From NCBI RefSeq assembly GCF_000383475.1, contig NZ_KB911461.1, forward strand, positions 372,001 to 436,000: 64,000 nucleotides of DNA, read 5' to 3'. A program made the translations under genes and the position numbers. The stretch is from Microbacterium sp. 11MF. GTDB taxonomy: Bacteria > Actinomycetota > Actinomycetes > Actinomycetales > Microbacteriaceae. The notes beneath the pieces were generated by a model, which was given only the letters and a program-made list of their open reading frames with translations, searched no databases and was not told the DNA's origin. This document shows, one piece after another, positions 2,323 through 18,782 of the stretch; within the stretch, counting starts at the first letter, position 1, and every line of letters begins with the position of its first letter.

Positions 2323-3414
2323 GTGAGCGGCATCCTCGTCCACGAGTGGCTGTCTCGGCACGGGGGCTCTGAGAACGTGTTCGACGTGCTCGGCGGGGTG
2401 TTCCCCGACGCCGAGCGGTGGTGCCTCTGGAACGAGAGCGAGGGACGATTCTCGGGCGTCCACGAGACCGCTCTGGCCCGGACCCCCCTCCGCGGGCACA
2501 AGGCGGCCGCCCTGCCGCTCATGCCGCTGGCTTGGCGGGCGCTGCCGGAGCGGGACGCCGACTGGGTTCTCTGCAGCAGTCACCTCTTCGCTCATCACGC
2601 GCGATTCCGCGGGGCCGCGCGCGAGGCGCCGAAGCTCGTCTACACCCACACCCCGGCGCGGTACATCTGGACGCCCGAGCTCGACGGCCGTGGCGGCGGC
2701 GTCGCCGCTCGTGCCGCATCCGCCCTGCTGAAGCCGCTCGACCGGCGCCGCGCAGCCGAGCCCGTCGCCATCGCCGCCAACAGTGCCTTCATCGCCGACA
2801 GGGTCGCGCGTGCCTGGGGTCGCGACGCCACCGTCATCCACCCGCCGATCGACGTCGCACGTTTCGCCGACGCGCGGCCGACGGACGAGACGGATGCCGC
2901 CGTCGCCGACCTCCCTCGCGACTATCTGCTCGGGGTCTCGAGGTTCGTCCCGTACAAGCGCCTCGAGCTCGTCATCGACGCCGGGGTCGCGTCGGGCCTC
3001 CCCGTGGTCCTGGCGGGTGGGGGAGCGGACGAGGAGAGGCTCCGCGCGTACGCGGCGGATCGGCGGCATCCCGTCACGATCGTCCGCGACCCGTCGTCCA
3101 TCCTGCTCGCCGCGCTCTACCGGGGCGCGCTCGCGCTCGTCTTCCCCGCCGTCGAGGATTTCGGCATCATGCCGGTCGAGGCGATGGCGGCGGGCACGCC
3201 CGTCGTGGGCAACGCCGTCGGGGGAGTCGCCGAGAGCGTCATCGACGGGGTCACCGGCGCGCTCGTCCACGAGTGGGCGGGCGAGGACCTGCGCGCCGCG
3301 GTCGAGCGCGCGGTGGCGTCGAGCCGCGAGGCGTGTGTGAGGCGCGCGTACGAGTTCGATCGTCCCGTGTTCGAAGCGCGCATCGCCGACTGGGTCGCGG
3401 AGAAGACGGCGTGA
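2323..3414 (+). CDS. GT4-type glycosyltransferase
   Basis: This 363-residue GT-B fold glycosyltransferase probably adds a sugar such as mannose from a nucleotide donor to a lipid-linked oligosaccharide at the cytoplasmic membrane. It shows HEWLSRHGGSENVF at the N-terminus (acceptor side), a GVSRFVPYKRLELVI segment starting the donor domain, and the E-x7-E motif in EDFGIMPVEAM, with AGTPVVG after it. The overall pattern resembles WbaZ-like mannosyltransferases. The start is GTG. A 9-codon ATG frame begins at 2297 and its stop overlaps this GTG, so coupled translation is possible. The gene overlaps the next glycosyltransferase by four bases (GTGA). Confidence 0.88.
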   Translation: MSGILVHEWLSRHGGSENVFDVLGGVFPDAERWCLWNESEGRFSGVHETALARTPLRGHKAAALPLMPLAWRALPERDADWVLCSSHLFAHHARFRGAAREAPKLVYTHTPARYIWTPELDGRGGGVAARAASALLKPLDRRRAAEPVAIAANSAFIADRVARAWGRDATVIHPPIDVARFADARPTDETDAAVADLPRDYLLGVSRFVPYKRLELVIDAGVASGLPVVLAGGGADEERLRAYAADRRHPVTIVRDPSSILLAALYRGALALVFPAVEDFGIMPVEAMAAGTPVVGNAVGGVAESVIDGVTGALVHEWAGEDLRAAVERAVASSREACVRRAYEFDRPVFEARIADWVAEKTA

Positions 3415-4379
3415 GCGGACTCCTCGTCGACGACCGGTACCGCGGTGCGCACGGGATCGGGCGCTACGCCCGCGAGGTGCTCGGTCGTCTCGATCGCGAC
3501 TGGCGCGGCCTGGGGCTGGACGGCACGCCTTACAGCCCGTTCGACGCGTTCCGTGCCCTGCCGGATCTCGCCGCGGGATCCGTGGTCTACTCGCCCGGGT
3601 ACGGGGCGCTGGTCCGCGCGCCGCGGCAGGTCCTGACGATCCACGACCTCATCCAGCTCGAGAGCCCCTGGCCCGGCCGCGCGAAGTTCCTCGCCTACTA
3701 CGGCGGCCCCGTGCGGCGTGTGGTCCGGCGAGCCGGCATCGTCCTCACGGTGTCCGAGGCCTCGGCCGAGGCGATCCGGCGGTGGCTGCGCGACGACGCC
3801 GTCGACGTCGTCAACGCCGGCAACGGGTGCTCCGCCGCCTTCACCCCCGACGGCCCGCGCGAGGTCGCATCCGACCCGTACGTCCTGTTCGTCGGGAACG
3901 TCCGGGCGCACAAGAACCTCGACGTCGTGCTGCGCGCCCTCGCGGTGACCAGCGGCATCCGTCTTCGCGCGGTCGTGCCGGCCGGCGAGTCGGACCAGGT
4001 GCGGCAGGCCGCCGAGCGACATGGAGTCGAGGCCCGGATCGACGTCGTGGGCGGTGTCGACGACGCGCGGCTCGCCGAGCTCTACCGGGGCGCCGCCGCG
4101 ACCGTCATGCCGTCGTTGCTCGAGGGGTTCGGACTGCCCGCCCTCGAATCCGTGGCGAGCGGGACGCCGGTCATCCATTGGGCCGGATGCCGCGCCGTCG
4201 CCGAGATCGTGGACGGGCGCGGCCCGGCGATGACCGACGCGCACGACGCGCACGAGTGGGCCGCCGCGATGACGGATGCCGCCGCATCCCCTCGCGCCGT
4301 CGACCCGCCGCGCGGCACGTACGACTGGGATCGCACGGCGGGGATCGTCTCCGCGACGCTCGCGCGTGCGGGCGGGTGA
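3411..4379 (+). CDS. GT4-type glycosyltransferase
   Basis: This second GT-B glycosyltransferase is 322 residues long and translationally coupled to the preceding gene through a GTGA overlap, which fixes the GTG start. It has the glycine-rich GAHGIGRYAREVL near the N-terminus, LTIHDLIQLESPW, a donor-domain start YVLFVGNVRAHKNLDVVL, and the E-x7-E motif in EGFGLPALESVASGTPV. These are classical GT4 signatures. It probably adds the next sugar of the same repeat unit. Sugar specificity cannot be read from the sequence. Confidence 0.88.
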   Translation: MSGLLVDDRYRGAHGIGRYAREVLGRLDRDWRGLGLDGTPYSPFDAFRALPDLAAGSVVYSPGYGALVRAPRQVLTIHDLIQLESPWPGRAKFLAYYGGPVRRVVRRAGIVLTVSEASAEAIRRWLRDDAVDVVNAGNGCSAAFTPDGPREVASDPYVLFVGNVRAHKNLDVVLRALAVTSGIRLRAVVPAGESDQVRQAAERHGVEARIDVVGGVDDARLAELYRGAAATVMPSLLEGFGLPALESVASGTPVIHWAGCRAVAEIVDGRGPAMTDAHDAHEWAAAMTDAAASPRAVDPPRGTYDWDRTAGIVSATLARAGG

Positions 4380-4698
4380 GCGGGTGCCGGGTGAATTCGC
4401 GCTCCGGGGCGAACGTATAGAGTGACTGGGCGGCACCGGTGGCGTGTGGCTCCGGCCGCCGTAACGCAGCCCGGCCACCGCAGCGAACGTGCTCGGTCGG
4501 ACACGATCTGATTCGGGGATGTCGGCGGCGCCGTGGCGTGTGGACGTCCTCCCGATCGATGAGGGGTGCGCGCGTCGGCGGGGGCGATGCCCCGCCAAGG
4601 GCGAGTGGGCGCGAGCCTGCCGCAGACATGCGCCGAACGACGTGTTCGGCTCGTCGCCACCCGGGGGCGAGGATGCGATATGGATAAAGTGGGGATCT
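4380..4698 (+). other. Intergenic region with candidate leaderless promoter
   Basis: No convincing gene is seen in these 319 bases. A 7-bp inverted repeat with a 5-base loop (GCCGAAC/GTTCGGC, 4632-4650) could be an operator or a weak terminator. TATAGAGT at 4416-4423 is -10-like. TAAAGT at 4685-4690 fits TANNNT and lies 8 bases before the ATG at 4699, the spacing expected of a leaderless transcript. There is no good ribosome binding site before that ATG, which supports this reading. Confidence 0.4.
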
Positions 4699-7053
4699 AT
4701 GCGATTGATTGAGTACGACGCGTCCGAATTGACTCCTGAGGAGTGGCGCGACGGGGGCGAGGCTCGAGCGTTCAACCCGACGATCGCAGAGGTCGATGGC
4801 GGCTACGTCATCGCCTATCGCGTCGTCCAGGTCGACTCCGACCATCGGCGCATCGCCACCGCCCGCCTCGACGCCGATCTGGCGTTGGTGCCGGGCAGCG
4901 TCCGTCCTCTGTCGGACGAGATCGCATTCGCTGACGAGGGGCTTCCCGAGCGTGCGAAGACGTGGCACGCGGACCCCGTGTACCTGTGGCTGCGCGGCCG
5001 CCTCTACCTCCTCTGGAACGACGGGGGTGCTCGTCCGAGCAACCACCAGTTCCTTCTCGAGATGACGTCCGACGGTCAGCACCCGGCGTCGCCCGCCCGG
5101 GAGCTGACGACCCTCGACCGACGCCCGATCGAGAAGAACTGGACCCTCTTCGAGGCGGACGGCGAGGTCTACGCGAGCTACTCCTACCGGCCGCACCGCG
5201 TTCTCCGCGTCGACCTGGACAGCTCCGACATCCGCATCGTCGCGACGACGGCCCACCGCAGCAACTTCACGACGGACTACGAGCGCATCTTCGGCATCAT
5301 CCGTGGCGGGGCACAGCCCGTCCGCCGCGGCGACAGCTTCCTCACCCTCGCGCACACGAGCTTCAAGACGGCCGACGGCCGTGTCTACCGGGGCGTGCTG
5401 CTCGAGTTCGAGGCGACGGCCCCCTTCCGGATCACCCGGATCGACGAGGTGCCCTTCGACCTCCCGAACCCCCGCGGCGCCAACTTCAAGCACGAGAAGC
5501 TCAACCCCGACGTGCACGAGGTCGTCTATCCGCGCGGCATGGTCCAGCGCGGCGACGACTGGGTGGTCGCCTACGGTCTCAACGACGAGGAGTGCGCTGT
5601 CGCCATCGTCCCCGGGGACGCGATCACGTCCGCCCTCGGTACGCAGGTGCGCAGCATCTTCACCACCGCGGATGCCCGGGCCCGCCTGACCTCGCTTCCT
5701 ACCGAGGACGTCAGTTCCGGCTCGTCACCGAGCCTGCCGGTGTTCTGGTACGACGCGAAGAACAAGCTCTTTGACCCGTTCCCCGCCGGCCGTCGTTTCA
5801 AGACGGGCAACTTCGGCGACCTCGCCTCGCGCTGGGCGGCGAAGCGGGTTTCGGGTGTCGAGCTGCGCGAGCCCGCTCCCGGGGCGCCTCGGCTGCTCGC
5901 GATCGGCTCCGTCCTGCAGCGCGCGACGGACGGCGATGTCGTGTGGGGGTCGGGCGTGAAAGGTGGCTCCGATCCGCTGCCGGTCGGGATCGACCTGGAC
6001 GTGCGCGCGGTGCGCGGACCGTACTCACTGGAATATCTGGCCGAGGCGGGTGTCTCGACGGAGCGCGTCACGCACACCTTCGACCCGGGCGTGCTCTTCC
6101 CGACCCTCTTCGCCTCGGAACTCGCTCAGACGCCCGACCGTCCGGGGCTCCGGATCGTGCCGCACTACCGCGATGACCTGGTCCTGCGCCGGAAGCACTA
6201 CGAGCACCTCGATGCCTTCATCTCGGTCGACACGACTCCGCTCGGCATGATGCGAGCGATGAAGGGTGCGGACCGCGTGATCGCGAGTTCGCTGCACGGC
6301 ATCATCTTCGCCGAGGCGATGGGGATCCCCGCCTACTGGTTGGCCCCGGTTGGCGGCGAGGACGAGCTCAAGTACTACGACTACTACTACGGCACCGGTC
6401 GTACGGACGTGAAGCGGTTCGAGTCGATCGACGACGCGATGCGGGCAGACCCCATGCCGCTTCCGACGTTCGACATCGAGGCCTACCTCGCGACGTTCCC
6501 CCACGACGCGGTCGACCGCCTGACCTCGGACATGATCCGTCCTGGCCAGCGGTTCCCGTTCACGCAGTGGGGACTCCACCACTTCGCCCGCAACTTCCAG
6601 CTGGCGGGTTTCGGCATCCGCGATCAGCAGGGCGTCTGGATGACGGAGCCCCGCGCCGCACTCAGCGGCGAGCTCGAGGGAGCTCCGGGCGACGTGTTCG
6701 ACGTCACGATCACCTTCGCCCCCGGCGACCCCACGCTGTTCGCCAACTCGCAGAGCCTGCGCGTCCAGGCGAACGACGGCCCCGCGCAGGTCGTGCGGTG
6801 GCGCCCGGGAGGACGCGACCCCGTCGAGGTCACCTTCCAGGTGACCGCTCGCTCGACGAACCCCCTCCTGCAGCTGGACTTCGGTGTGACCCCCTCGCCG
6901 GCGACGACGAACATCACCCTCGTCGACAAGCTGGCCCGCCGCGACCCGACCGGGCTGCTCCGGAAGATGATCCCCGCGGCGCCGCTCGGCAAGAAGCCGC
7001 GCTACGGCGTCATCAAGGCGGTGCGGGTGTCGTCGCTCACGCGACGCGCGTGA
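4699..7053 (+). CDS. Beta-propeller / polysaccharide pyruvyl transferase fusion protein
   Basis: This 784-residue protein has three parts. Residues 1 to about 340 look like a five-bladed propeller of the GH43/GH130 kind: FNPTIAEVDGGYVIAYRV, then IEKNWTLFEADGEVYASYSY. Residues about 380-640 are a polysaccharide pyruvyl transferase domain with NFGD, WGSGVKGG, the invariant AVRGP, a DPGVLFP strand, SSLHG (His533) and KYYDYYYGTGR. Residues about 640-784 form a beta-rich domain of unknown role. The pyruvyl transferase motifs are complete, so this half is probably active, adding a pyruvate ketal from PEP to a sugar. The propeller may bind, trim or phosphorolyse glycan. The start is the ATG at 4699, because residues upstream of it in the open frame are low-quality and a leaderless -10 box fits. 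Confidence 0.82.
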   Translation: MRLIEYDASELTPEEWRDGGEARAFNPTIAEVDGGYVIAYRVVQVDSDHRRIATARLDADLALVPGSVRPLSDEIAFADEGLPERAKTWHADPVYLWLRGRLYLLWNDGGARPSNHQFLLEMTSDGQHPASPARELTTLDRRPIEKNWTLFEADGEVYASYSYRPHRVLRVDLDSSDIRIVATTAHRSNFTTDYERIFGIIRGGAQPVRRGDSFLTLAHTSFKTADGRVYRGVLLEFEATAPFRITRIDEVPFDLPNPRGANFKHEKLNPDVHEVVYPRGMVQRGDDWVVAYGLNDEECAVAIVPGDAITSALGTQVRSIFTTADARARLTSLPTEDVSSGSSPSLPVFWYDAKNKLFDPFPAGRRFKTGNFGDLASRWAAKRVSGVELREPAPGAPRLLAIGSVLQRATDGDVVWGSGVKGGSDPLPVGIDLDVRAVRGPYSLEYLAEAGVSTERVTHTFDPGVLFPTLFASELAQTPDRPGLRIVPHYRDDLVLRRKHYEHLDAFISVDTTPLGMMRAMKGADRVIASSLHGIIFAEAMGIPAYWLAPVGGEDELKYYDYYYGTGRTDVKRFESIDDAMRADPMPLPTFDIEAYLATFPHDAVDRLTSDMIRPGQRFPFTQWGLHHFARNFQLAGFGIRDQQGVWMTEPRAALSGELEGAPGDVFDVTITFAPGDPTLFANSQSLRVQANDGPAQVVRWRPGGRDPVEVTFQVTARSTNPLLQLDFGVTPSPATTNITLVDKLARRDPTGLLRKMIPAAPLGKKPRYGVIKAVRVSSLTRRA

Positions 7054-7086
7054 CTGCGCCGCGGGTGGGGCGTCCCTCGGGGCGCC

Positions 7087-7830
7087 TCACTCGCGCGGCG
7101 GGATGCCCGCGGGGTAGAGGCCCCGCAGATTCGCCATCTCCTTCTTGTAGGTGAGCGCCTCGCTCATTCCCCACTTCTCGGCGAAGTCGAGTGACTGGCG
7201 GCCTTTGTCCTTGCCGGTGAAGTGCAGGACGAAATGCTCGAAGCCGCCCGCGACGAAGTGGCGCGGCCGGCAGTTGAAGGCGGTGTAGTCGAGTTGGGCG
7301 TAGAAGCCCTCGACCGCGAAATCCGGGTTCGTCATCATCTGGTAGACGAGCGCATCCTGATCTCCACCCGTCCAGTACCCGTAGACCGAGTCGTCCCACC
7401 ACTCGCGCGCCTTGGCCAGATCGGTCGCGATGGTGGCGTCGATGAGCTTCCGGCCCAGCTCGGTGTTGCGGATCAGCATCGTGCCCGAACTCATCCAGGT
7501 CCAGAGGTCGGTGTCCTTCGGGCTCGCGCAGAAGATGATCGTCGCATCCGGATGCGCGTCGATGAAGCTCGTCAGGGTCGTCTTGCGGCCGGTGAAGAAC
7601 GCGTCGTCGTCGATCCAGAAGAGCCAGTCGAACAGCGGCAGGAACTTCTTGATCTTGGCGAGCTTCAAGAAGAAGTTCTTGTGCTGAGCGGGTTCGGCCA
7701 CCGGAGCGATGTCGAAGATGTAGGTGTACCCGTGGGCGCGCGCGTAGAGCTCGTGATTGACGTGCGCGTTCGTCCTCAAGCGGTCGCAGTAGCTGATGAT
7801 CCCGACCCGCGGACCGGTTGGCTCGCTCAT
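7087..7830 (-). CDS. GMA12/MNN10-like (GT34-type) glycosyltransferase
   Basis: This 247-residue GT-A type transferase shows VGIISYCDRLRTNAHVNHELYARAHGYTY-like features split by the sugar-donor motif WIDDDAFF (DxD, metal and nucleotide-sugar binding). It also has a C-terminal HFVLHFTGKDKG segment typical of the galactosyl/mannosyl GMA12/MNN10 family. It is encoded against the direction of its neighbours, facing the propeller-pyruvyl transferase gene. The start was taken at MSEPTGPR because a TAACAT -10 box lies 7 bases upstream, a leaderless arrangement; a longer frame upstream has unlikely composition. It probably adds a side-chain sugar of the locus polymer. Confidence 0.78.
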   Translation of the reverse strand: MSEPTGPRVGIISYCDRLRTNAHVNHELYARAHGYTYIFDIAPVAEPAQHKNFFLKLAKIKKFLPLFDWLFWIDDDAFFTGRKTTLTSFIDAHPDATIIFCASPKDTDLWTWMSSGTMLIRNTELGRKLIDATIATDLAKAREWWDDSVYGYWTGGDQDALVYQMMTNPDFAVEGFYAQLDYTAFNCRPRHFVAGGFEHFVLHFTGKDKGRQSLDFAEKWGMSEALTYKKEMANLRGLYPAGIPPRE

Positions 7831-7837
7831 GGTCGGG

Positions 7838-7843
7838 ATGTTA
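7838..7843 (-). promoter_or_regulatory. Leaderless-type -10 box for the GT34-like gene
   Basis: On the minus strand the sequence reads TAACAT, 7 bases before the ATG at 7830. No ribosome binding site is visible, consistent with a leaderless transcript. Confidence 0.4.
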
Positions 7844-7973
7844 CGGCACGGGTCGGAACGACCGCAGGCACTTGCGCTTCGCGGTGGCGCAGGGCATGTG
7901 GACGGATGCCGCCGGGTAGGATTCTCGTGCCTCACACCGCATACCGGCGCGCGCGCGTCAGACAGGTCTCGCT

Positions 7974-9809
7974 TTGTCTCTTCCCCCTGATGTCATCGTC
8001 TGTTCGTTCTTCACCGATGACGAGTACTACCGCGGATGGGCCAAGAAGCTCGAGGAGAACCTCGACGATCTGGGCATCGCGCACGTCTTGCGTGAGGTGC
8101 ACAAGGAGCCCGGCCAGGACTGGGCTGACATCTGCCGCCAGAAGGTCGCCTTCCTCGACACCGTGTGCCGTGAGAACCCGGACGCGCGCGTGTTCTGGAC
8201 GGATGTCGACTGCGAGATCCTCGACCTTCCCGCGTACGTCCGCAACTTCACGGCCGACATCATCGGCTTCCAGCATGGTTTCTCCCGCCCGATGGAGATC
8301 GGCTACAAAGCCGCCACTCGTTTCTGGGCGCCGAGCTTCATCGGCGTGAACACGACCCCGGCGGCCCGGAAGTTCGTCTCGGATGCCGCCGACTTCGAGC
8401 GCCTGTCGACGCTCAAGGCCACGGATGACTACTTCTTCGAGGAGTCCTGGCGCGCGAATGCGGACTCGCTCAGCTTCCAGGTGATCCCCGCCGGCGGCGT
8501 CCTGGGACGCGGTAACGGCGACGTCACCGCCTTCTACGCGTTCGGGTCGAGCGGCAACGTTCCGCAGTTCCGGAACCTGGTCGTGCAGCACACCGCTCCC
8601 GGAGCCAAGGCGGCTCCGACGTCCCGCGAGGCCGGCGCGATCGCCTGGAAGGTGCGCGTCAAGGTCGCCGCCTACCGGGCGCTCAAACAGGTCGACGCCG
8701 TCGTGACGCGGGTCGCGCCGCAGCGTGCGCCTCTCGTGCGCGACTGGGTCAAGCAGCATCCGCTCATCCACCGCATCCGTCCGATCACGCCTCCCAAGGC
8801 CGACAACCACCGTTCCCGCCTTCTTGCGCAGGCCGTGGCCGTCGGTCAGCGGGGCGACCTCGAGCGTTTGGACGCGATCGAACGTCGGCTGCACGCCGGT
8901 GGCATCCTCTCCGCTGCGGAAGCCGCCACCGTCGATGCGGCGAAGGCGTTCGCGTCGTACGCCACCTTCGGGTCCCCGGCCGCTGACTCGGCCGACACGA
9001 CCGCGGCGGTGCCCCTCGTCTGGTGGCCCCGTCCCTTCCCCGGCAACTTCGGGGACTGGTTGAGCCCGCTCATCGTGGCGAGCGTCGCGAACACTCCGGT
9101 GGAGTTCGTGCCGGCGACGGGCAACGCGCGCAAACCGCATCTCGTCGGCCTCGGTTCGATCGCGAAGTTTGCGAACGAACACTCCGTCGTGGTGGGTTCC
9201 GGTGCGTCTGCGGGCGATGCGGAGCTCCACCCCGGGGCGCGGTACCACTCGCTCCGTGGTCCGCTGACCGCCGACATCCTCACCGCCCGCGGCGGTCCCG
9301 CCGTCACCACCTTCGGCGATCCCGGAGTGCTCCTGCGTCGCGTCCTGCCCATGGAGCGCCCCGAGACGAACGGCCGGCTGGCACTCGTCCGTCACTTCAC
9401 CCACGCGACGCTCCCGGTGCGCCGGCCCGCCGGCCTCGATGAGATCAGCGTGCTCCAGTCCAGCCCCGAGAGTCTGCGGACGTTCATCGAGAAGCTGCAC
9501 CAGTACGACGGCATCGTCACGAGCGCGATGCACGTCGCGATCGCGTGCCACAGCTACGGCATCCCGGTAGCGTTGATCGGGTTCGAAGGTGCGGCGAGCA
9601 CCGTCGCCGGCGACGGGATGAAGTACCGCGACTACTCGCTCGGCGCGGGTCTCGAGCGGCTCTGGGAGCCCCAGCAGCTGATCCTCGACCTGCGCAACGT
9701 CGACCTTCGGTCGATGCTCGACTCCGAGTACGTCGCCGAGGAGAAACTCGACGAGGTCGAGGCAGCCATCAAGAACGCCGTCGCCGACTGGCGAGATATC
9801 GTCGCCTGA
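7974..9809 (+). CDS. Glycosyltransferase / pyruvyl transferase-like fusion protein
   Basis: This 611-residue protein has a GT-A-like transferase domain at residues 1 to about 215, with VIVCSFFTDDEYYRGWAKK and the DxD motif WTDVDCEIL (about 75-83). A linker follows at about 280-345. Residues about 346-590 form a polysaccharide pyruvyl transferase-like domain with WWPRPFPGNFGDWLSP, SLRGPLT, FGDPGVLLRR and TSAMHVAIAC (His520). The KYEDYYxGTGR motif of classical members is altered to MKYRDYSLGAG. The start is TTG; no ATG or GTG fits before conserved sequence. The next gene follows with no gap and carries the same linker and C-terminal domain. TAGGAT at 7917-7922 is a possible -10 box. Confidence 0.78.
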   Translation: MSLPPDVIVCSFFTDDEYYRGWAKKLEENLDDLGIAHVLREVHKEPGQDWADICRQKVAFLDTVCRENPDARVFWTDVDCEILDLPAYVRNFTADIIGFQHGFSRPMEIGYKAATRFWAPSFIGVNTTPAARKFVSDAADFERLSTLKATDDYFFEESWRANADSLSFQVIPAGGVLGRGNGDVTAFYAFGSSGNVPQFRNLVVQHTAPGAKAAPTSREAGAIAWKVRVKVAAYRALKQVDAVVTRVAPQRAPLVRDWVKQHPLIHRIRPITPPKADNHRSRLLAQAVAVGQRGDLERLDAIERRLHAGGILSAAEAATVDAAKAFASYATFGSPAADSADTTAAVPLVWWPRPFPGNFGDWLSPLIVASVANTPVEFVPATGNARKPHLVGLGSIAKFANEHSVVVGSGASAGDAELHPGARYHSLRGPLTADILTARGGPAVTTFGDPGVLLRRVLPMERPETNGRLALVRHFTHATLPVRRPAGLDEISVLQSSPESLRTFIEKLHQYDGIVTSAMHVAIACHSYGIPVALIGFEGAASTVAGDGMKYRDYSLGAGLERLWEPQQLILDLRNVDLRSMLDSEYVAEEKLDEVEAAIKNAVADWRDIVA

Positions 9810-11741
9810 ATGTTCCGGGACATCTTCGCGGCGTTCGCCCAGCAGTTCCCGCGCTGGCGGGAGCGGCGCATGATCATCGCGCTCCTCGTCCTGATGGCGA
9901 TCCTGCCGGTTGGGGAGCTCCTCGTCCTGCAGGTGTTCTCGAACCTGCTGGTCGAGGCTTCGCAATCCCTTGCCGGGAAGCTCGGCACGGTGGTGCTCCT
10001 CCTGTCGCTCTTCCTCGCGGGGTTCGCGGTGACACGAGGACTCCAGCACGGCACGAAGTTCTGGCGTGTGCGCATCTTCCGCGCCGCCTTCGCCGACCTG
10101 CAGGACCGAACCGGAGCAGGCGCCGCGAACTGGCAGTGGGCGAGGGCCTTCGGAGTCTCGTCGATCATCGCCGACCTCATGCAGATCGTCGCGGTGCTGG
10201 GCGTGCTCTTCTACTTCGATCTCGTCATCGGAGGCGTGAGCGCCGTCCTGACGGTCGTCGTGATCATCCCCCTGTCCCTGCTGTACCGGCGTCAGCTACG
10301 GGTTCAGCTCGAGTTGATGGATGCGCCGGTGAAGCGCGTCGAGGCGCCCATCCGGGAGCGCATCTACTCCGGCGAGTTCGCCGCGATCGCGGCATCCGCC
10401 GGAAGTGGGATCGCCCTCGCGCTCGTCGTGCTCCGGATCTTCTCCGGCGGGCTCGATGTCGCCACGGCGATCGTGCTCGCCATGGCCCTGCGCATCTACT
10501 TCGGCCGCATCGCGGCGCTGTCTCCGACGTTCATGCGCTTCGCGCGTGACTCACTGCGTCACCAGCGGGACGTGGAGCGGTATCTCGCCCGAAACGGGGG
10601 CGCCGCGGATCCGGCTGCCGACGGCGATTTCGACAGCGATACCGACGCCGACCCGGATGCGGTCTCCGCTCCCGTCAGGGACGAGAAAGCCGAGAGCCGG
10701 CGTCGATCGGCTCTGGTCGGCCGGATCCTCCTCGAGGCGCAGCGGGGCGAGAGCGCCCGCTTCCACCGGGCCGCGTCGCAGCTCTGGTCGAACGGCGATG
10801 TGACCGTGCCGGAGCGTAACGCGATGCGAGGCGCCGAGGCCTTCCTGGCTTACGCGACCGCGTCCTCCGCCGAGGCGGTAGCCGACGATCCGGTTCCACT
10901 GTTCTGGTGGTCCAAGCCGTTCCCGGGTTCTTTCGACGAGTGGCTGAACCCCTATCTCCTGGGAGCATCGACAGGGCGGGCGGTGCGATTCGCTGCCGCG
11001 ACGGGCGCGCAGGAGGTCCCGCCCCATCTCATGATGGGCGGGTCGCTCGCGTCCCATGCGCAGTCCCGCTCGATTCTCGTCGGAACCGGTGTGTCCAAAC
11101 TCGAGGCCACCGTCGAGCCGACGGCCGAGTTCATCTCCCTCCGCGGACCGCTCACTCATCGCGTCGTCCGCCGCAACGGCGGCAGCGTCACCGACAGCTT
11201 CGGCGACCCCCGCCTTCTCCTCCGGCGCGTGCACCCGCTCACGCTCGGGGGCAACAACGGGCGGCTGGCCTTCGTGCGCAACCACTCGGATGCCGGCGTC
11301 CCCTACGTGCTCGCCGAGAACATGGATGAGATCTCCATCAGCGGTTCCGCTCCGGAACAGGTCGTCGGCCTCGTCGACCGACTCGCGACCTATCGCGGCG
11401 TCGTGACGACGAGCCTCGGCGTCCTCGTCGTCTGCCAGAGCTACGGCATCCCGAGTGCCCTCGCCTGTGAGGAAGAGAGCCGGCGGATCAAGCGTCTGGA
11501 CATGGAGCTCCGTGACCACCTGCTGGGCTCGGGTGCAGAGGGGGACTGGGAGCTCCACAAGGTTCCCCTCGACCTCGGCCGCGTGCCGTGGTCGCGCCGC
11601 CTCGTCGGTGAGAGGATCGCCGACACCAAGCTGGACGAGATCTCGGCGGCGCTCGAGTTCGGACTGAGCCGGCAGGCCGAAGCGGTCGCTGACGCCCTCG
11701 AGCGCGAGCTCGCGGATCAAGAGCTCCCGGGCGATGGCTGA
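9810..11741 (+). CDS. ABC-exporter-like membrane domain fused to degenerate pyruvyl transferase-like domain
   Basis: This 643-residue protein starts immediately after the previous stop. Residues 1 to about 250 contain about six predicted membrane helices and look like the membrane half of a type I ABC exporter, but no Walker A, signature or Walker B motif follows. Residues about 285-340 match the linker of the preceding protein. Residues about 365-600 match its pyruvyl transferase-like domain: FWWSKPFPGSFDEWLNP, SLRGPLT, FGDPRLLLRR. The catalytic-region His is lost, with TTSLGVLVVC where others have SSLHG (position 537 is Gly), and the D-Y-Y motif reads ELRDHLLGSG. I infer a membrane-anchored, probably non-catalytic partner of the preceding enzyme. 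Confidence 0.72.
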   Translation: MFRDIFAAFAQQFPRWRERRMIIALLVLMAILPVGELLVLQVFSNLLVEASQSLAGKLGTVVLLLSLFLAGFAVTRGLQHGTKFWRVRIFRAAFADLQDRTGAGAANWQWARAFGVSSIIADLMQIVAVLGVLFYFDLVIGGVSAVLTVVVIIPLSLLYRRQLRVQLELMDAPVKRVEAPIRERIYSGEFAAIAASAGSGIALALVVLRIFSGGLDVATAIVLAMALRIYFGRIAALSPTFMRFARDSLRHQRDVERYLARNGGAADPAADGDFDSDTDADPDAVSAPVRDEKAESRRRSALVGRILLEAQRGESARFHRAASQLWSNGDVTVPERNAMRGAEAFLAYATASSAEAVADDPVPLFWWSKPFPGSFDEWLNPYLLGASTGRAVRFAAATGAQEVPPHLMMGGSLASHAQSRSILVGTGVSKLEATVEPTAEFISLRGPLTHRVVRRNGGSVTDSFGDPRLLLRRVHPLTLGGNNGRLAFVRNHSDAGVPYVLAENMDEISISGSAPEQVVGLVDRLATYRGVVTTSLGVLVVCQSYGIPSALACEEESRRIKRLDMELRDHLLGSGAEGDWELHKVPLDLGRVPWSRRLVGERIADTKLDEISAALEFGLSRQAEAVADALERELADQELPGDG

Positions 11742-12774
11742 CCGTCAGGGTCGTCGTCTTCGCGTCACGCAGCTGCTCGCCGACCCGAACCGGTCCGCTC
11801 GCCCCGTCGAGAACCCCTACACGTCGCTGCTCGTCTCCTCGTTGCCGGACGAACGGATCGAGACGCGGTACTTCGGATGGGCGGACGTGCTCACCTCGGA
11901 CGCTGACGTGGTCCACATGCACTGGCCCGAGAACTCCCTCCGGCATCCGCGAACGGCTGTGCGTCTCCTCAAGCGCGCCCTGTTCCTGCTGTTCATCCTG
12001 CGCCTCCGGATGGGTCGGATCGCCGTCGTGCGGACGGTGCACAACGCGCGGCCGCACGAAGCGGGGGACCGCGGTGAGCGATGGATCCTCGGCCTGCTCG
12101 AGGCTCGGACGACGCTGTGGGTGACGCTCAACGACGTGACGCCGACGCCGGATCCCCGCAGGACGGTGGTCATCCCGCACGGGCACTATCGGGATCGGTT
12201 CGCCTCTCCGACGCCGGAGCCGCGGCGAGGGAATCTCGTCCACTTCGGGATGCTGAAGCCCTACAAGGGCGTTGATGAACTGATCAGCGCCTTCGCCGCC
12301 GTGCCCCACGAGCTCGATTACCGCCTGCACATCGTCGGGGAGAGTCACGACGGGCCGCTGACCGAGCGGGTGCGCGCGGCTTCGCGCCGCGATGAGCGGA
12401 TGGACATCGACCTGCGGTTCGTCGACGAGACCGAACTGGCGGATGCCGTCGGTGCCGCGGAGATCGTCGTCCTGCCGTACCGCGCGATCGAGAACTCCGG
12501 CTCGGCGCTGCTCGCCCTGTCGCTGCATCGCCCTGTCATCCTCCCCGAGTCCCCTTCGACCCGGCTCCTGGAGGAGGAGTTCGGTGACGAGTGGGTCGGC
12601 CTCTACCGGGGACCTCTCACCGCCGAGACCCTCCAGCGCGCAGTCGAGGACCTCCGCGATCGACCGAGGGACGCCGCCGGCCCCGACATGTCGGAACGCG
12701 ACTGGCCGCGCCTCGGCTCGCTGCTGGCCGATGCATACGACCGCGCTGCCGCATCGCTCAGGCGCCGGGCCTGA
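11734..12774 (+). CDS. GT-B glycosyltransferase
   Basis: This 346-residue GT-B type glycosyltransferase overlaps the previous gene by 8 bases. It contains DVVHMHWPENSLRHPRTAV, characteristic of a group of exopolysaccharide transferases, VRTVHNARPHE, VIPHGHYRD, then the donor-side HFGMLKPYKGVDELISAF and VVLPYRAIENSGSALLALSL where the canonical E-x7-E region would be. It probably transfers a hexose from a nucleotide sugar in the same pathway. Its stop codon abuts the stop of the convergent gene, and the two form the palindrome TGATCA. Confidence 0.82.
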   Translation: MADRQGRRLRVTQLLADPNRSARPVENPYTSLLVSSLPDERIETRYFGWADVLTSDADVVHMHWPENSLRHPRTAVRLLKRALFLLFILRLRMGRIAVVRTVHNARPHEAGDRGERWILGLLEARTTLWVTLNDVTPTPDPRRTVVIPHGHYRDRFASPTPEPRRGNLVHFGMLKPYKGVDELISAFAAVPHELDYRLHIVGESHDGPLTERVRAASRRDERMDIDLRFVDETELADAVGAAEIVVLPYRAIENSGSALLALSLHRPVILPESPSTRLLEEEFGDEWVGLYRGPLTAETLQRAVEDLRDRPRDAAGPDMSERDWPRLGSLLADAYDRAAASLRRRA

Positions 12775-13827
12775 TCACAGGCCGCCGACGAATGTGAGGA
12801 TGGCGGCCACCTTCGCCGTCCACGAATGGGACTGGGCGAGTTGCGCGCCGGATCCGTTCGGCTCGCGCCTCTCCAGAGCCGCCTGCAGTGCGCTCTGGGC
12901 CTCCGCCTCGTCGGCGTAGGTGTAGACCCCGTTCGAGGGATCGGAGGCGATGACCGGAGTGCGACGCGAGACCACGTTCAGCCCGCTCGCGAGGTATTCG
13001 TACAGCTTCATGGGGCTGCGACCGGCGTTGCCGGGGTCATCGGACAGGGGCAGCAGGCCCACGCGGGCCGCCGCGAAGCGCGCGGGGAGCTCGTCGTAGG
13101 GGAGAGCGCCGAGGACGGCGACGTTGTCGGGGAGCGTCGGGGGCTCGCCGGTGAGCGGCCCGATCAGCTCGAACCGCACGTCACGGTGCGCACCGGCCCA
13201 GCGTGCCACCCGCCCCCAGTCGAATCGCCGGTCGAGGGCGCCGGCGTAGACGCACGTCTCGGCGCGGGTGCCGTTCGTCTCGGTGAACCGCGCCGTGTCG
13301 ACACCATTGGGCACGACGATCGCGGGCACGCGCACGTCGCCGAGGCCCCGCAGCACCTCGACCGACGTCGCGATGACACCGTCCACGTGGTGGAGGGCGT
13401 CACGCTGCAGACCGGCCTTCATCCCGCGCGGGTACTCGTCGGTCGGGCGGTAGACGACGATGTCGGCGAGCTCTCGCACGGACTGGTGCCACATCAGCGG
13501 TTGGTCCACGAGGACGAGGTCGAACCGGTCGAGCCGGCGCCGTCGTAGTTCGGTGGCGACGGAGAAGGTGCCGATGCCCGCGGGGAGCAGGGTGCGCGGC
13601 ACGATGTGTCGCACCCCCGAGGCATCCACTTCATCCGAGGGCGTTGCGCGCGCGCGACTGCGAGGGACGCGACCGAGCACGCGATGGACCATCGAGATCG
13701 GCGTCGAGAGGTGGACGACGTCGTGGCCGAGGCGGGCGAGTTCCGCAGCGAGGTGGTGGCTGCCGACGCGGAAGATCCCGTGGCTGTCGGTGTGGCTGAC
13801 GAAGAGGATGCGCATGGGCTGATTCAC
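12775..13827 (-). CDS. GT-B glycosyltransferase
   Basis: This 350-residue glycosyltransferase starts MNQPMRILFVSHTDSHGIFR and has the Rossmann-like N-terminal GSHHLAAELARLGHDVVHLS, a middle VVPNGVDTARFTE (typical GT4 hinge), then YAGALDRRFDWGRVARW and the C-terminal SPMKLYEYLASGLNVVSRRT, close to the glycosyltransferase family 1/4 nucleotide-binding region. It overlaps the upstream pyruvyl transferase gene by four bases (ATGA), so the two are translationally coupled and probably act on the same sugar. Confidence 0.85.
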   Translation of the reverse strand: MNQPMRILFVSHTDSHGIFRVGSHHLAAELARLGHDVVHLSTPISMVHRVLGRVPRSRARATPSDEVDASGVRHIVPRTLLPAGIGTFSVATELRRRRLDRFDLVLVDQPLMWHQSVRELADIVVYRPTDEYPRGMKAGLQRDALHHVDGVIATSVEVLRGLGDVRVPAIVVPNGVDTARFTETNGTRAETCVYAGALDRRFDWGRVARWAGAHRDVRFELIGPLTGEPPTLPDNVAVLGALPYDELPARFAAARVGLLPLSDDPGNAGRSPMKLYEYLASGLNVVSRRTPVIASDPSNGVYTYADEAEAQSALQAALERREPNGSGAQLAQSHSWTAKVAAILTFVGGL

Positions 13828-14615
13828 GGCGTCTGTGCCGCCGATGTGCTCCAGAGGTCATCAGGGAACGCCTCGAGCAACGCCGCGGCATCCCACCCGC
13901 GGAGTGGAGGGGCAGGAGGTGTGTCGAGAGCGGCGCGCCAGTCGGATGCCGCGACGGGAAGCGCTCGGCCCGTCCCCGCGTAGTAGTCCTCGTACTTGAA
14001 AGCCGGCTCGGTGCTCGCGGCGACGAGGACGGCGGGGACGCCGAACGCCTCCGCGACGACGATCCCGTGGAGGGAGCTCGCGATCACCGACTCCGCCGAT
14101 GCGATCTGCCGGACCTTCTCGAGCGCCGGTCCCCTCGGCGACAACGCCGTCGGGGGGAAGCGGTGCCGGTCGTGCAGATTGGGGACGAGGACGGTGCCGC
14201 CGGAGCCGCGCACGATGCCGAGCTCGTCGTCCGTCCACAGGTGGGGGAGGAGGAGAGCCGGGTCGCCGAACACCTCGCTCGAGCGGTTCCCTCCCTCACG
14301 CAGGCGGGCCGCGGTCAGCGGGCCGCGCACCGCGCGGACGTCGAGGTCCCTCGGGATCGGGGCGGGCTCCTTGACGTTCGCCCCGCTTCCCCAGACGACG
14401 TCGCCGGGGCGGGCGAGGTGCAGGATCGAGCCCACGGCGAGGATGCGGCGCAGCTCCGGCCGCTCCTCGAGTCCTCGCGATCGTGCGATGCGGGCCACGA
14501 TCTCCGGGCCGAGCAGGTCGCCGAAATTGTTGACACGCGGACCCACGTGGATCCGTGCCGTCACCCGACCGGATCCGAGCTTCCGGCGAGGGTTCCAATA
14601 CACGACGCGCGGCAC
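13824..14615 (-). CDS. Polysaccharide pyruvyl transferase (stand-alone)
   Basis: This 263-residue enzyme is the minimal form of the domain found in three fusions nearby. It has RVNNFGDLLGPEIV, VVWGSGANVKEP, DVRAVRGPLTAARL, VFGDPALLLPHL, IASSLHGIVVAEAFGVPAV (His183) and KYEDYYAGTGR, all family signatures. It probably uses PEP to form a 4,6- or similar pyruvate ketal on a sugar, as CsaB- and CapD-type enzymes do. The GTG start has a GAGGGA ribosome binding site. A TAGGCT -10 box lies at 14646-14651 on the minus strand. It is coupled to the following glycosyltransferase gene. Confidence 0.9.
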   Translation of the reverse strand: MPRVVYWNPRRKLGSGRVTARIHVGPRVNNFGDLLGPEIVARIARSRGLEERPELRRILAVGSILHLARPGDVVWGSGANVKEPAPIPRDLDVRAVRGPLTAARLREGGNRSSEVFGDPALLLPHLWTDDELGIVRGSGGTVLVPNLHDRHRFPPTALSPRGPALEKVRQIASAESVIASSLHGIVVAEAFGVPAVLVAASTEPAFKYEDYYAGTGRALPVAASDWRAALDTPPAPPLRGWDAAALLEAFPDDLWSTSAAQTP

Positions 14616-14769: not shown

Positions 14770-16902
14770 GTGCGGATCAAGAAGTGGCAACTTTTCGCGG
14801 GCGGTGCTGTCGTGCTCGCCGGTGGGCTCACGACGGCGATCATCGTCTCCAACTCCTTCGCCTCGAACGGCGTGGCGCCCACGACGCGGCCGACGGCCGA
14901 GGCGCAGCAGACGCCCACCCCGACACCGACTCCCGAGCCGCAGCCGGCACCGGAGCCGCAGTCCGCGCCGTCGTACGGTGATCTGGTCGGGTGGGATCAG
15001 GCAGGGACGACCACGGTCGCCCGGGTGCTGCCGCAGGTCGGCGATGCCGCGGCCGGGTCCGTCGCCGCGTACGTCGACGCTCCCGTGGTCGACAAGCAGA
15101 CGACGGTCCTCCAGTCCGTCGCGAAGGTCGATGCGGGTGCGCAGTACACCTTCACGGCGCAGGTCCGCTCTGCCACGGCGTTCCCCGAGCCGGTCGACGC
15201 GAAGATCGTCGTCGGCGACACCGAGATCCCCCTCCCCGACATCAGTGCCGCATGGTCCGAGGTGACCGCGGACGTCCGCGTTCCCGCAGGCGCCGACACC
15301 GTGGCGGTGGGCCTCGTCGTCACCGGCCCGGTGCGCGGCCTCGGGCTCGACGCCGTCTCGCTCACTGCGGTGACCGGCGGATCGAACGCCGTCGCCAACG
15401 GCTCGTTCGAGGACGTCAAGACAGACGACCGCATCCTCAACCGCTCCCTCGTCCTGCCGGCGAGCCGACCCGTGCTGGCCGTCCGGCTGCCCGAGGGCGC
15501 CGCTTCCTGGAAGGCTTTGGATGCCGCCGGCAAGGTCGCCGCGTCCGGTAAGGCCGATCTCTCGAGCCCCATCAGCAGTGTCGACCTGACCGGCCTGCCT
15601 CAGGGGTACTACGACGTCTCGGTCGAAGCGGGCGGCACGTCGGTGTCGACGCTTCTCGGCGTCGTCGATTTCGACGGGGTCGAGATCGCGAAGGACGACC
15701 GGTTCGGGGTGGGCCTGCACGTCGAGAACGGGATCTACGCCGGCGCCGCCGACCTCGCGGCATCCCTCGGGATCGGGATGGCGCGCAACGACGTCCTCTG
15801 GCGCGACAACGAGACAACGAAGGGGAGATACGACTTCGCGGACCACTACGTCGACGGCTTCGCCCGCCTCCACGCGCACGACATCAAGGTGCTCGGCATC
15901 GTCAACTACGGCAACTGGCTCTACGGCAACGGGCAGGTTCCGGTGTCGGGCAACGCCATCGCCGCCTACGGCAAGTACGCGGCTGCGATCGCCGACCGCT
16001 TCGACCTGGTCGGGCTCGAGGTCTACAACGAGTTCAATCACGCCCGCTTCAACAAGTCCTCCTGCGGCACCTCGCCGCGCTGCTACGTGCCGCTGCTGAA
16101 GTCCGTGCATGACCAGGTCCGCAAGGTCGACCCGAAGCTCCCGATCATCGCGGGGGCGACGGCGCGGTACGAGTCGGACTGGTTCGACGGGCTGTGGCGC
16201 GCGGGCGGACTGAGGTACTCCGACGCCGTGAGCTTCCACCCGTACGAGGTCTCGAGCAAGCCCGAATCGCTCGCCGGCATCATCGACGAGGCGAACAGCA
16301 GCATGACGGCGAACGGCAAGACGACCCGACCGATCTGGATCACCGAACTCGGAAGCTCGTCGAAGACGGGCGGCCGCACGGTGTCCGCTCAGGCGGACTA
16401 CCTGGTCCGGACCGCGACGACCGCCCTCGCCGGCGGAGCCGAGAAGTTCTTCTGGTACGACCTCATCAACGATGATCCGGATCCCGGCAAGCACGAGGGC
16501 AACTTCGGCATGTACTACCAGAAGAGCAAGGGCGTCGCGGCCCTCCAGCCCAAGCCGGTCGGCTACGCCCAGGCCCTGATGATCTCGCAGCTCCAGGGGC
16601 GTGCGTTCGCGGCATCCGAGTCGGTGGGCAAGGGCATCCAGTCGCACCGTTTCGGCGACGAGGCGAACGCGGTGCGCATCGTCTGGTCGCCCGCCGGCAA
16701 GGGCACGATGACGCTCAAGAGCGACGTCCCGGTGGCGGTGACGAACATGAACGGGGCCACCCGGTCGGTCGCGCCCGTCGACGGCGTCGTGACGATCCCC
16801 GTGAGCCCGCGCCCCCAGTTCGTCCAGACGAGCGCGGCGCCCGCCAACGCGACTCCGACGCCGACGCCGACGCCGACGGTCTCCCAGGCTCCCGCCGAAT
16901 AG
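14770..16902 (+). CDS. Secreted clan-A glycoside hydrolase (GH39/PslG-like)
   Basis: This 710-residue exported protein has an N-terminal membrane segment (LFAGGAVVLAGGLTTAIIV), a TPTPTPTPEPQ-rich linker, a carbohydrate-binding-like beta domain (about 80-220), a small beta domain, and a TIM barrel from about residue 310. The barrel shows LEVYNEFNH (acid/base Glu) and WITELGSS (nucleophile Glu), the pair expected of clan A families such as GH39, which includes PslG of the Pseudomonas Psl pathway. It ends in another TPTPTPTPT tail. Such hydrolases trim or release polymer in exopolysaccharide assembly. I chose the GTG at 14770 because GAGAGG precedes it and it puts the membrane segment directly at the N-terminus; ATG 14707 is an alternative. 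Confidence 0.8.
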   Translation: MRIKKWQLFAGGAVVLAGGLTTAIIVSNSFASNGVAPTTRPTAEAQQTPTPTPTPEPQPAPEPQSAPSYGDLVGWDQAGTTTVARVLPQVGDAAAGSVAAYVDAPVVDKQTTVLQSVAKVDAGAQYTFTAQVRSATAFPEPVDAKIVVGDTEIPLPDISAAWSEVTADVRVPAGADTVAVGLVVTGPVRGLGLDAVSLTAVTGGSNAVANGSFEDVKTDDRILNRSLVLPASRPVLAVRLPEGAASWKALDAAGKVAASGKADLSSPISSVDLTGLPQGYYDVSVEAGGTSVSTLLGVVDFDGVEIAKDDRFGVGLHVENGIYAGAADLAASLGIGMARNDVLWRDNETTKGRYDFADHYVDGFARLHAHDIKVLGIVNYGNWLYGNGQVPVSGNAIAAYGKYAAAIADRFDLVGLEVYNEFNHARFNKSSCGTSPRCYVPLLKSVHDQVRKVDPKLPIIAGATARYESDWFDGLWRAGGLRYSDAVSFHPYEVSSKPESLAGIIDEANSSMTANGKTTRPIWITELGSSSKTGGRTVSAQADYLVRTATTALAGGAEKFFWYDLINDDPDPGKHEGNFGMYYQKSKGVAALQPKPVGYAQALMISQLQGRAFAASESVGKGIQSHRFGDEANAVRIVWSPAGKGTMTLKSDVPVAVTNMNGATRSVAPVDGVVTIPVSPRPQFVQTSAAPANATPTPTPTPTVSQAPAE

Positions 16903-16905
16903 ACT
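16900..16905 (+). promoter_or_regulatory. Candidate leaderless -10 box (TAGACT) for the DUF4012 gene
   Basis: TAGACT overlaps the stop codon of the hydrolase gene and lies 7 bases before the ATG of the DUF4012 gene, the spacing expected if transcription starts at or next to that ATG. It would allow expression separate from the upstream gene. Confidence 0.4.
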
Positions 16906-16912
16906 GTGACCC

Positions 16913-18694
16913 ATGCCTCCTGAGACCCGTCGCGGCGCCCGCGAAGCGGCCGCCCGAGCTGCGGGAGACGCGTCGCCGTCGACCGATGCCTCCACCGAAG
17001 CCAAGCCCAAGGCCTCGCGTCGCCGAATCGTGGGCCGCGTGGTCCTCGGCCTCGTGATCGTCGTCCTGGGGCTCTCCGCGTGGTTGGCCGTGAAGGTCGT
17101 CATCGCGAAGAACGGCCTCGAGTCCGCGCAGGCGGCGGTCGCGTCCATTCAGAACGGCGGGCAGGTCTCCGAGGCCATTCCGCGGCTCTCCTCGGGCGCG
17201 GCGGATGCGGCGGGCGCTGCAGCCGACCCGGTCTGGCGCATGGCGGAGTTCCTCCCCTTCGCCGGCGACAACCTCCGCGGCGTGCGGCTGGCGTCCGAGA
17301 CGCTCGACGTCTTCGCGAACGGCGTCGGTCGCCCGGTCTTCGCCATGCAGGATGACGGCAAGGGCAAGATCCTCGCCCGTGCGCTGCCGCTCATCGAGGC
17401 CGCAGCGCCGAAGCTCGACAAGCTCCGCGGCGAGCTGACGGGTGTCGCCGCTTCGGGCAGTCTCGTCGGTCCGGTGAAGGCCGGCGTCGAGCAGGTCGCA
17501 GAGGTGGCGGATGCCGCCGGGCCGCTGTTCGATCTCTTGCCCCGACTCCTCGGCTCGGACGAGAAGCAGAACTACCTGCTGGTGTTCCAGAACAACGCGG
17601 AAGCCCTGCCTCTGGGAGGAAGCTCCGCCTCGCAGACGCTCATCACCGCCGATGCCGGTGACCTCGCGATCGCCAACCAGGCCAGCAGCGCCTCCTTCGT
17701 CGAGGGGTCGTTCGTCGACATCGACCTGCCCGAGTCCGCGAAGACGCTCTACGGCAGCCGCTACGGCAGCTACATCAACCTCGCGCCGTCGCAGCCCGAC
17801 TGGCCCGGGGCGGCCGCCATGGTCAAGGCGTTCTGGAACCGCGACATCGACGACACGCGGATCGACGGCGTCATCTCGGTGGACCCCGTCGCCCTGCAGC
17901 GCATCCTCCTCGCGACCGGCCCCATCGAGGTCGACGGGATCACCATCGATCACAACAACGCCGTGAAGACCCTCCTGAGCGACGTCTACAAGTGGTGGAA
18001 CCCGTACGACGATCCCGACCTCAAGTCGGACGCCTTCTTCGCCGGTGTGGCGGGCTCCGTTTTCAGCAAGATCGCCAGTGGCGACTTCAACATCAAGGAC
18101 ATGGCCTGGGCCATGACCGAGAGCATCAACCGCGGCAGCATCCTCGCGTGGAGCAGCGATGCCGAGACGCAGAAGATCATCGGCGAATCGGGACGCCTGT
18201 CCGGCATCCTGCCGAAGGAGAACACCGCGCAGACGGTGAACGGCGTCTTCTTCCGCAACGTCTCCGCGTCGAAGATCGACTATTACACGAAGACGGCCGT
18301 CGAATCGACGCTCTCCTGTGCCGATGGGGTCACGACCCTCACGACCACCGCCAAGGTCTCGCTCGACATCACTCAGGGTGCAGCCGAGGATCTTCCGACG
18401 TACGTGCAGAGTCGCGCTCAGGGCGCGAAGTACTTCGGCACGCAGGTCTACATGTACGCGCCTCCGGGAATGGAGCTCGCCTCCACCGAGACCACCGGTG
18501 GTGCGTCCGCGTTCCGGCAGGGGAACGTCGACCTCGGTCGGGTCGTCGAGCCCTTCCAGGCCCGATTGACCCCCGGCGGGACCTTCACCGTCACTGCGAC
18601 GTTCACGGGGAAGGGCGATTTCGGCCCCCTCGAGCTGTGGACCACCCCGATGATCCACGAAACGAAGACGACGGTCACCGACACGTGTCATTGA
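16913..18694 (+). CDS. DUF4012 membrane-anchored protein
   Basis: This 593-residue protein has a charged N-terminal tail, one membrane helix at about residues 40-62 (VVLGLVIVVLGLSAWLAVKVV), and a long extracytoplasmic part matching DUF4012. The family hallmark N-N-x-E followed by G-G is present as LLVFQNNAEALPLGGSS. The middle has DGVISVDPVALQRIL and ATGPIEV, also seen in the paralogue at 50255. The biochemical role of DUF4012 is not established to my knowledge; members often sit beside exopolysaccharide genes. It is placed between a secreted glycan hydrolase and the initiating sugar transferase, suggesting a role in polymer export or attachment. Confidence 0.85.
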   Translation: MPPETRRGAREAAARAAGDASPSTDASTEAKPKASRRRIVGRVVLGLVIVVLGLSAWLAVKVVIAKNGLESAQAAVASIQNGGQVSEAIPRLSSGAADAAGAAADPVWRMAEFLPFAGDNLRGVRLASETLDVFANGVGRPVFAMQDDGKGKILARALPLIEAAAPKLDKLRGELTGVAASGSLVGPVKAGVEQVAEVADAAGPLFDLLPRLLGSDEKQNYLLVFQNNAEALPLGGSSASQTLITADAGDLAIANQASSASFVEGSFVDIDLPESAKTLYGSRYGSYINLAPSQPDWPGAAAMVKAFWNRDIDDTRIDGVISVDPVALQRILLATGPIEVDGITIDHNNAVKTLLSDVYKWWNPYDDPDLKSDAFFAGVAGSVFSKIASGDFNIKDMAWAMTESINRGSILAWSSDAETQKIIGESGRLSGILPKENTAQTVNGVFFRNVSASKIDYYTKTAVESTLSCADGVTTLTTTAKVSLDITQGAAEDLPTYVQSRAQGAKYFGTQVYMYAPPGMELASTETTGGASAFRQGNVDLGRVVEPFQARLTPGGTFTVTATFTGKGDFGPLELWTTPMIHETKTTVTDTCH

Positions 18695-18724
18695 GCGGCT
18701 GAGCGGGTATTTCCAGCTGTTTGA

Positions 18725-18730
18725 TAACAT
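18725..18730 (+). promoter_or_regulatory. Candidate -10 box upstream of the sugar transferase
   Basis: TAACAT fits TANNNT in an AT-rich patch (TTTGATAACAT) after the DUF4012 stop. A start near 18737 would give a leader of at least 45 bases. No -35 box is apparent. Confidence 0.35.
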
Positions 18731-18782
18731 CCTCGGAGACCGGCACCCGTCCGTCGTCGAAGATGCGAGGCCTGCCGGAGGA

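Follow-up and report, generated by a model that had tools for sequence, protein, structure and literature searches.

The stretch from 4699 to 14615 of the window, the whole 64,000-nucleotide DNA analyzed here (G000:C3:372001-436000) from a genome of the Microbacteriaceae, carries four polysaccharide pyruvyltransferase (PPT) domains, which belong to the proteins referred to below as A to D. Three active pyruvyltransferases are probably encoded here, two of them fused to sugar-acting partners, together with a membrane-bound pseudo-pyruvyltransferase that is paired with protein B. Judged from sequence or models, the pyruvyltransferase active site is intact in A, B, and D and not in C. The whole explanation, in which three active enzymes are accompanied by an inactive C that holds B at lipid-linked synthesis, and which assigns the locus to a polyprenyl-linked surface polysaccharide, with 4699-14615 as its decoration core, has in our judgment about an even chance of being right when all its parts are taken jointly. 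Pyruvate ketals provide charge and binding sites on bacterial surface glycans, and to our knowledge the enzymes that form them have been little studied.

The polysaccharide locus lies between tuf, which ends at 1833, and the ribosomal protein L3 region, which starts at 21086; viewed over positions 1-24000 of the window, it forms an insertion that separates tuf from the S10-type ribosomal operon. It contains GT4 glycosyltransferases, a GT34-like protein, the four PPT domains, a GH5-like protein, DUF4012, and a polyprenyl-phosphate sugar transferase. Since related yet different polysaccharide genes occupy the same tuf-side site in another genome (G1152, L219), the locus looks like a variable surface-polysaccharide locus. 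Its features were as follows:

2323-4379, forward strand: a pair of GT4 glycosyltransferases with which the locus opens (Pfam E 2.3e-20 and 4.1e-22)
4699-5793, forward strand: N-terminal five-bladed beta-propeller of A, GH130/GT108-like in fold
5794-6543, forward strand: PPT domain of A, with NFGD, RGP, SSLHG, and KYYDYY intact
6556-7053, forward strand: C-terminal region of A, 35% identical in the G216 ortholog
7087-7935, reverse strand: GT34-like glycosyltransferase (GMA12/MNN10) between A and B (PF05637, E 1.5e-9), for which no match was found in the syntenic G216 locus
7974-8618, forward strand: N-terminal DxD domain of B, glycosyltransferase-like
8991-9788, forward strand: PPT domain of B, with N358xG360D361, R428, H520, and K550 kept
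9810-10601, forward strand: N-terminal six-helix membrane domain of C, of the type IV ABC-exporter kind without the ATPase
10872-11675, forward strand: degenerate PPT domain of C, with NxGD changed to SFDE, SxxH to SLG (G537), and K to E, and with R445 kept
11734-12774, forward strand: GT4 glycosyltransferase overlapping the end of C (Glyco_trans_1_4, E 9.6e-10)
12775-13827, reverse strand: GT4-type glycosyltransferase (PF13524, E 3.8e-7; PF13439, E 1.1e-6)
13824-14615, reverse strand: D, a stand-alone PPT domain with intact motifs
14770-20405, forward strand: GH5-like protein (Cellulase, E 8.8e-6), DUF4012 (E 1.5e-33), and the polyprenyl-phosphate sugar transferase for chain initiation (Bac_transf, E 5.9e-66; EPS_sugtrans, E 8.6e-125)

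A Wzy_C-type match was also seen at G000:C3:439034-439459, about 3 kb past the end of the window and beyond the ribosomal genes.

Three of the four domains scored above the gathering cut-off of the Pfam family PS_pyruv_trans (PF04230), which is 25.3 bits, with 53.1 bits for A, 27.6 for B, and 44.4 for D, and C had no Pfam match. The C-terminal half of C was 40% identical to the PPT domain of B over 278 residues (E 2e-65) and matched a profile of A/D-type PPT domains with a probability of 98.9 (E 1e-17). Foldseek matches of the AlphaFold2 model of C (mean pLDDT 90.9) included the Klebsiella pyruvyltransferase WbbZ (crystal structure, PDB 6x1l), with an E of 0.016. The four PF04230-type domains reported in the preliminary description were therefore borne out, by Pfam for A, B, and D, and by homology to B, profile, and structure for C; the Foldseek comparison that it had proposed as a check gave WbbZ among the matches of the C model. 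Its reading of shared motifs had to be amended. RGP is present in all four domains, but GDP is found in B, C, and D and not in A, which has TFDP, and SxxHG is exact in A and D, reads SAMHV in B, and is absent from C (TSLGV). The motifs NxGD and RxxxS/T and the active-site His are present in A, B, and D, whereas in C the Asp and the His are gone and the Arg is retained. A motif census found N, G, D, R, H, and K kept in 10 of 10 A/D-type domains, and the NxGD Asp, RGP Arg, SxxH His, and KYxDY Lys kept in 77 of the 77 B domains with enough sequence.

The tree grouped A with D and B with C, with B in a family separate from A/D, which suggests that two PPT lineages were brought together at the locus. 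Conservation of the four-domain locus in the genome G216 argues for more than chance. The idea that a locus with more than one PPT gene is exceptional in itself was dropped after a survey of the genus, in which loci with two or three were common; at least one PF04230 match was present in 131 of its 198 genomes, and one genome (G927) had three PPT genes within 10 kb. The novelty hence lies in the architectures and not in the count.

Protein C as a whole spans 9810-11741. Fusions of this type, in which the membrane gene is joined to a PPT domain, were found in seven genomes, namely those of the window, G216, two Janibacter, a Nocardioides, a Marmoricola, and a Propionibacteriales MAG, and thus in Microbacteriaceae, Intrasporangiaceae, and Nocardioidaceae/Propionibacteriales. 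In all seven, the NxGD Asp is replaced by E or N and the SxxH His by G or P, and the Arg, the GDP motif, and the DY aspartate are kept; five of them have also lost the Lys. Ketal pyruvyltransferases have the motifs NxGD, RxxxS/T, and H in common (PMC10629545). The H308A and H308R variants of CsaB were fully inactive (PMC10435577), and the D106A variant of Pvg1p had almost no activity (PMC4872226); if the motif matching is right, D106 would be the NxGD Asp, as read from the motif description in PMC10629545. Because C has neither this Asp nor the His, it is predicted to be a pseudoenzyme. The trees placed the C domains inside the B family, on longer branches than those of B. Five of the seven formed one clade (support 99/97), and the two Janibacter copies, which fell elsewhere, may represent a separate event, with a single clade for all seven not being rejected (p-AU 0.12).

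The membrane module that had been described at the N-terminus of C was recognized in the model as an ABC-exporter fold of six long helices (pLDDT 90.9), which matched BmrCD (VIA) with a Z of 18.3 and 3.2 A over 254 residues. The nucleotide-binding domain of such exporters is missing: a search found no ABC ATPase in C or elsewhere in the 64-kb window, and an ATPase gene was not consistently present near the membrane gene in relatives. The domain is also about 60 residues shorter than in real ABC exporters, and together these two features make ATP-driven transport by C unlikely. A PDB search with the C alignment gave no meaningful match, and when 24 members of the membrane family were scanned with Pfam and NCBIfam, none was assigned to a named family, the sole signal common to several members being a weak match to a bacteriocin export ABC transporter (three members, best E 0.0023).

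The membrane domain was found almost only beside B. Most relatives have it as a separate gene of about 256 amino acids that adjoins B or lies a few kilobases off, and in the window C begins at the base directly following the stop codon of B. Among 297 genomes of the order, searched for full-length B and for the membrane profile under the same drawing rule, strong membrane-profile matches occurred in six, all of which were among the nine genomes with full-length B; the two weakest whole-genome matches lay in frames of 622 and 634 amino acids, which are as long as full ABC exporters. B can do without the membrane gene in some cases, since three loci (L087, L089, and L091) carry full-length B with no membrane gene nearby. 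In Demequina activiva (L111:11803-13380, L086), a single frame of 526 amino acids was read by eye as the membrane domain followed by a GT2-like region, and GT2 genes lie directly downstream of the membrane gene in L085 and L147.

Protein B is a 611-residue fusion (7974-9809) of a DxD domain and a PPT domain. The fusion is widespread, with 90 loci, mainly in Actinomycetota, found among 84,980 species scanned (80 of the 90 loci were kept), and the relatives were 37-65% identical in most of the loci found. The hosts in Actinomycetota include Ornithinimicrobium, Nocardioides, Marmoricola, Cellulomonas, Demequina, Janibacter, Streptomyces, and the freshwater Aquiluna, among others, and elsewhere some Paracoccus, Vibrio, Marinobacter, and Alteromonadales. 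The glycosyltransferase partner of B had been read correctly, at the motif level only: the N-terminal domain is a candidate glycosyltransferase-like domain from the motifs CSFYT, WxDVDC, KATDDYF, FGSSGN, and QH, which are conserved in the alignments. Fourteen members were assigned to no Pfam family, and a Paracoccus paralog of the domain gave a weak Nucleotid_trans match (E 0.12). Profile comparison (hhalign) gave no significant similarity of the N-terminal domain to the GT34 protein encoded in the window, nor to a GT2 protein; the PDB sequence search with B returned spurious ribosomal protein L17 matches only.

Protein A spans 4699-7053, and its start is better placed at 4699, as in the G216 ortholog, than at the first in-frame start at 4489. 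Its propeller, which had been noted at the outset, was modeled with moderate confidence (m96074dfe32cf; pLDDT 69, pTM 0.75) as a five-bladed GH130/GT108-like propeller, with structural Z values (VIA) of 24.9 to GH130 5ay9, 20.2 to GT108 MPT-2, and 17-18 to GH43. A propeller profile of seven sequences matched GH130 4onz in the PDB (E 0.003), and the best PDB matches listed were mostly GH130-type glycosidases or phosphorylases. In Pfam, both matches were below the cut-off (GH43, E 0.0016; GH130, E 0.025, with 14.0 versus 26 bits), and the invariant ADP motif of the propeller aligned with EDP of GH130. From the model, the propeller is plausibly a mannosyl-transferring or mannoside-binding domain. 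Among the genomes searched (250 of the family, 247 of the genus, and 396 of the phylum), the full propeller-PPT fusion occurred only in the window and in G216. In five other genomes of the genus (L214-L218), the propeller is a separate gene, which lies close to PPT genes in L215, L216, L217, and L218 and directly adjacent to them in L215 and L218; in L215 there is a 7-base overlap between the propeller gene and the A-type PPT gene, and in L214 a PPT frame lies beside the propeller gene on the opposite strand. Such stand-alone propeller genes beside PPT genes provide a Rosetta-stone link for A.

The remark that these architectures are unlike those of characterized enzymes holds for the open-access literature, in which no PPT fusions of these kinds and no fused or inactive PPT partner were found described, but the architecture of B is common in genomes. 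The pairing of an inactive PPT domain with a transporter-like membrane protein without an ATP motor, as in C, recurs in other bacteria and appears to be undescribed.

In the mechanism that we propose, the chain would be started by the polyprenyl-phosphate sugar transferase and extended by the GT4 enzymes. The N-terminal domain of B would add a sugar, and its PPT domain would ketalize the same sugar or a neighbor with pyruvate from PEP. A may act in the same way as B or bind mannose-containing acceptors via its propeller, and D would add a further ketal. The several ketal positions suggested earlier are thus possible for A, B, and D at most, since C has neither the catalytic His nor the NxGD Asp, whereas the other suggestion, an enzyme plus regulator pair, fits an active B and a C without catalytic residues well. 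C may have arisen when a copy of the B PPT domain joined the adjacent membrane gene and then lost catalysis, an origin suggested by the membrane domain being mostly a separate gene beside B and by the position of the C domain inside the B family. It would now act as a partner in the membrane that keeps B where lipid-linked synthesis takes place, either by pairing with the PPT domain of B or by binding its substrate or product, and its role would be that of an anchor or of a reader of the product.

C could also be a reader and a gate, with the dead PPT domain binding the pyruvylated end made by B and the membrane domain helping to carry the lipid-linked glycan to the other side of the membrane. 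ABC transporters that recognize a glycan terminus are a precedent, since some O-antigen ABC transporters have a carbohydrate-binding module that recognizes the terminal modification before export (PMC11231755), and the transporter fold and the arginine for the PEP carboxylate, kept in all seven C domains, are consistent with such a role. The genome had no match to the two Wzx flippase families searched, PF01943 and PF13440, from which a diverged flippase could be missed, and this leaves room for transport by C. Against it stand the missing ATPase, the shortened domain, and the fact that most relatives carry the membrane domain without any PPT copy, and we regard this reading as unlikely. A writer-reader pair, in which B would write the ketal and the ATPase-less C would recognize the pyruvylated lipid-linked glycan and pass or hold it at the membrane, seems rather unlikely.

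It is likewise unlikely that the PPT domain in C has no function of its own and is a duplicate in decay, so that only the membrane domain matters. The longer branches of C and the absence of the PPT part from most relatives would agree with decay, but the frame is uninterrupted in seven genomes, which represent three or more families, identical sites were lost and identical sites kept, and five of the seven domains fall in the well-supported clade. That the PPT fold serves a different reaction, PEP-dependent or a transfer, in B-type domains, which have SAMHV in place of SxxHG, is quite doubtful; their separate family and a PF04230 score barely above the cut-off (27.6 vs. 25.3) point that way, whereas the catalytic positions checked from WbbZ and CsaB were kept in 77/77. 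Lastly, all four domains being active pyruvyltransferases that place ketals at four positions, as their common domain family and RGP motif might suggest, is very improbable, since C is without two residues whose change in characterized enzymes abolishes or nearly abolishes activity (PMC10435577, PMC4872226).

The locus can be compared with known systems. WbbZ of K. pneumoniae O1, CsaB of P. alvei, and Pvg1p of S. pombe share the PPT domain and, with A, B, and D, the motifs NxGD, RxxxS/T, and H, and the model of C matches the WbbZ structure. In the cited papers they are treated as separate single-function proteins, whereas the present locus has two copies joined to sugar-acting domains and another that is predicted to be inactive and is membrane-bound. 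Type IV ABC exporters (BmrCD, PCAT1, and MsbA) have the six-helix membrane fold of C (Z up to 18.3), but C is without an ATPase, either in the same protein or close by, has a membrane domain shorter by about 60 residues, and carries a dead PPT domain in the C-terminal place. The GH130 mannoside phosphorylases and the GT108 mannosyltransferases of Leishmania (MPT) resemble the five-bladed propeller of A (Z 24.9 and 20.2), in the case of GH130 with distant sequence similarity as well, but the propeller of A is under the Pfam GH130 cut-off, and propellers of its type are fused or adjacent to PPT. Systems with multi-module O-antigen enzymes, for example WbbY, WbbB, and WbdD (Klebsiella, E. coli), also join polymer-building and end-modifying modules, the terminal modules there being a kinase/methyltransferase, a Kdo transferase, or a separate pyruvyltransferase.

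The analysis yields a widespread and apparently uncharacterized family of glycosyltransferase-pyruvyltransferase fusions (B), an unnamed accompanying membrane family that has the ABC-exporter fold but lacks an ATPase, and a recurrent, predicted inactive pyruvyltransferase on a membrane protein of this fold. The B-C pairing poses a testable question, namely whether the inactive relative recruits, regulates, or reads pyruvylation.

Further arrangements of these modules were observed in passing. In Paracoccus siganidrum, a second, distant glycosyltransferase-PPT paralog (L153:14758-16758), whose PPT part shows 35% identity, lies some 3 kb away from the B-type gene. In G117 (L101:8197-9948), a PPT domain is joined to a GT2 glycosyltransferase, a further architecture of this kind, and three gammaproteobacterial loci (L162, L163, and L166) combine the membrane gene, a glycosyltransferase-PPT fusion, and a separate PPT gene with an intact SxxHG motif.
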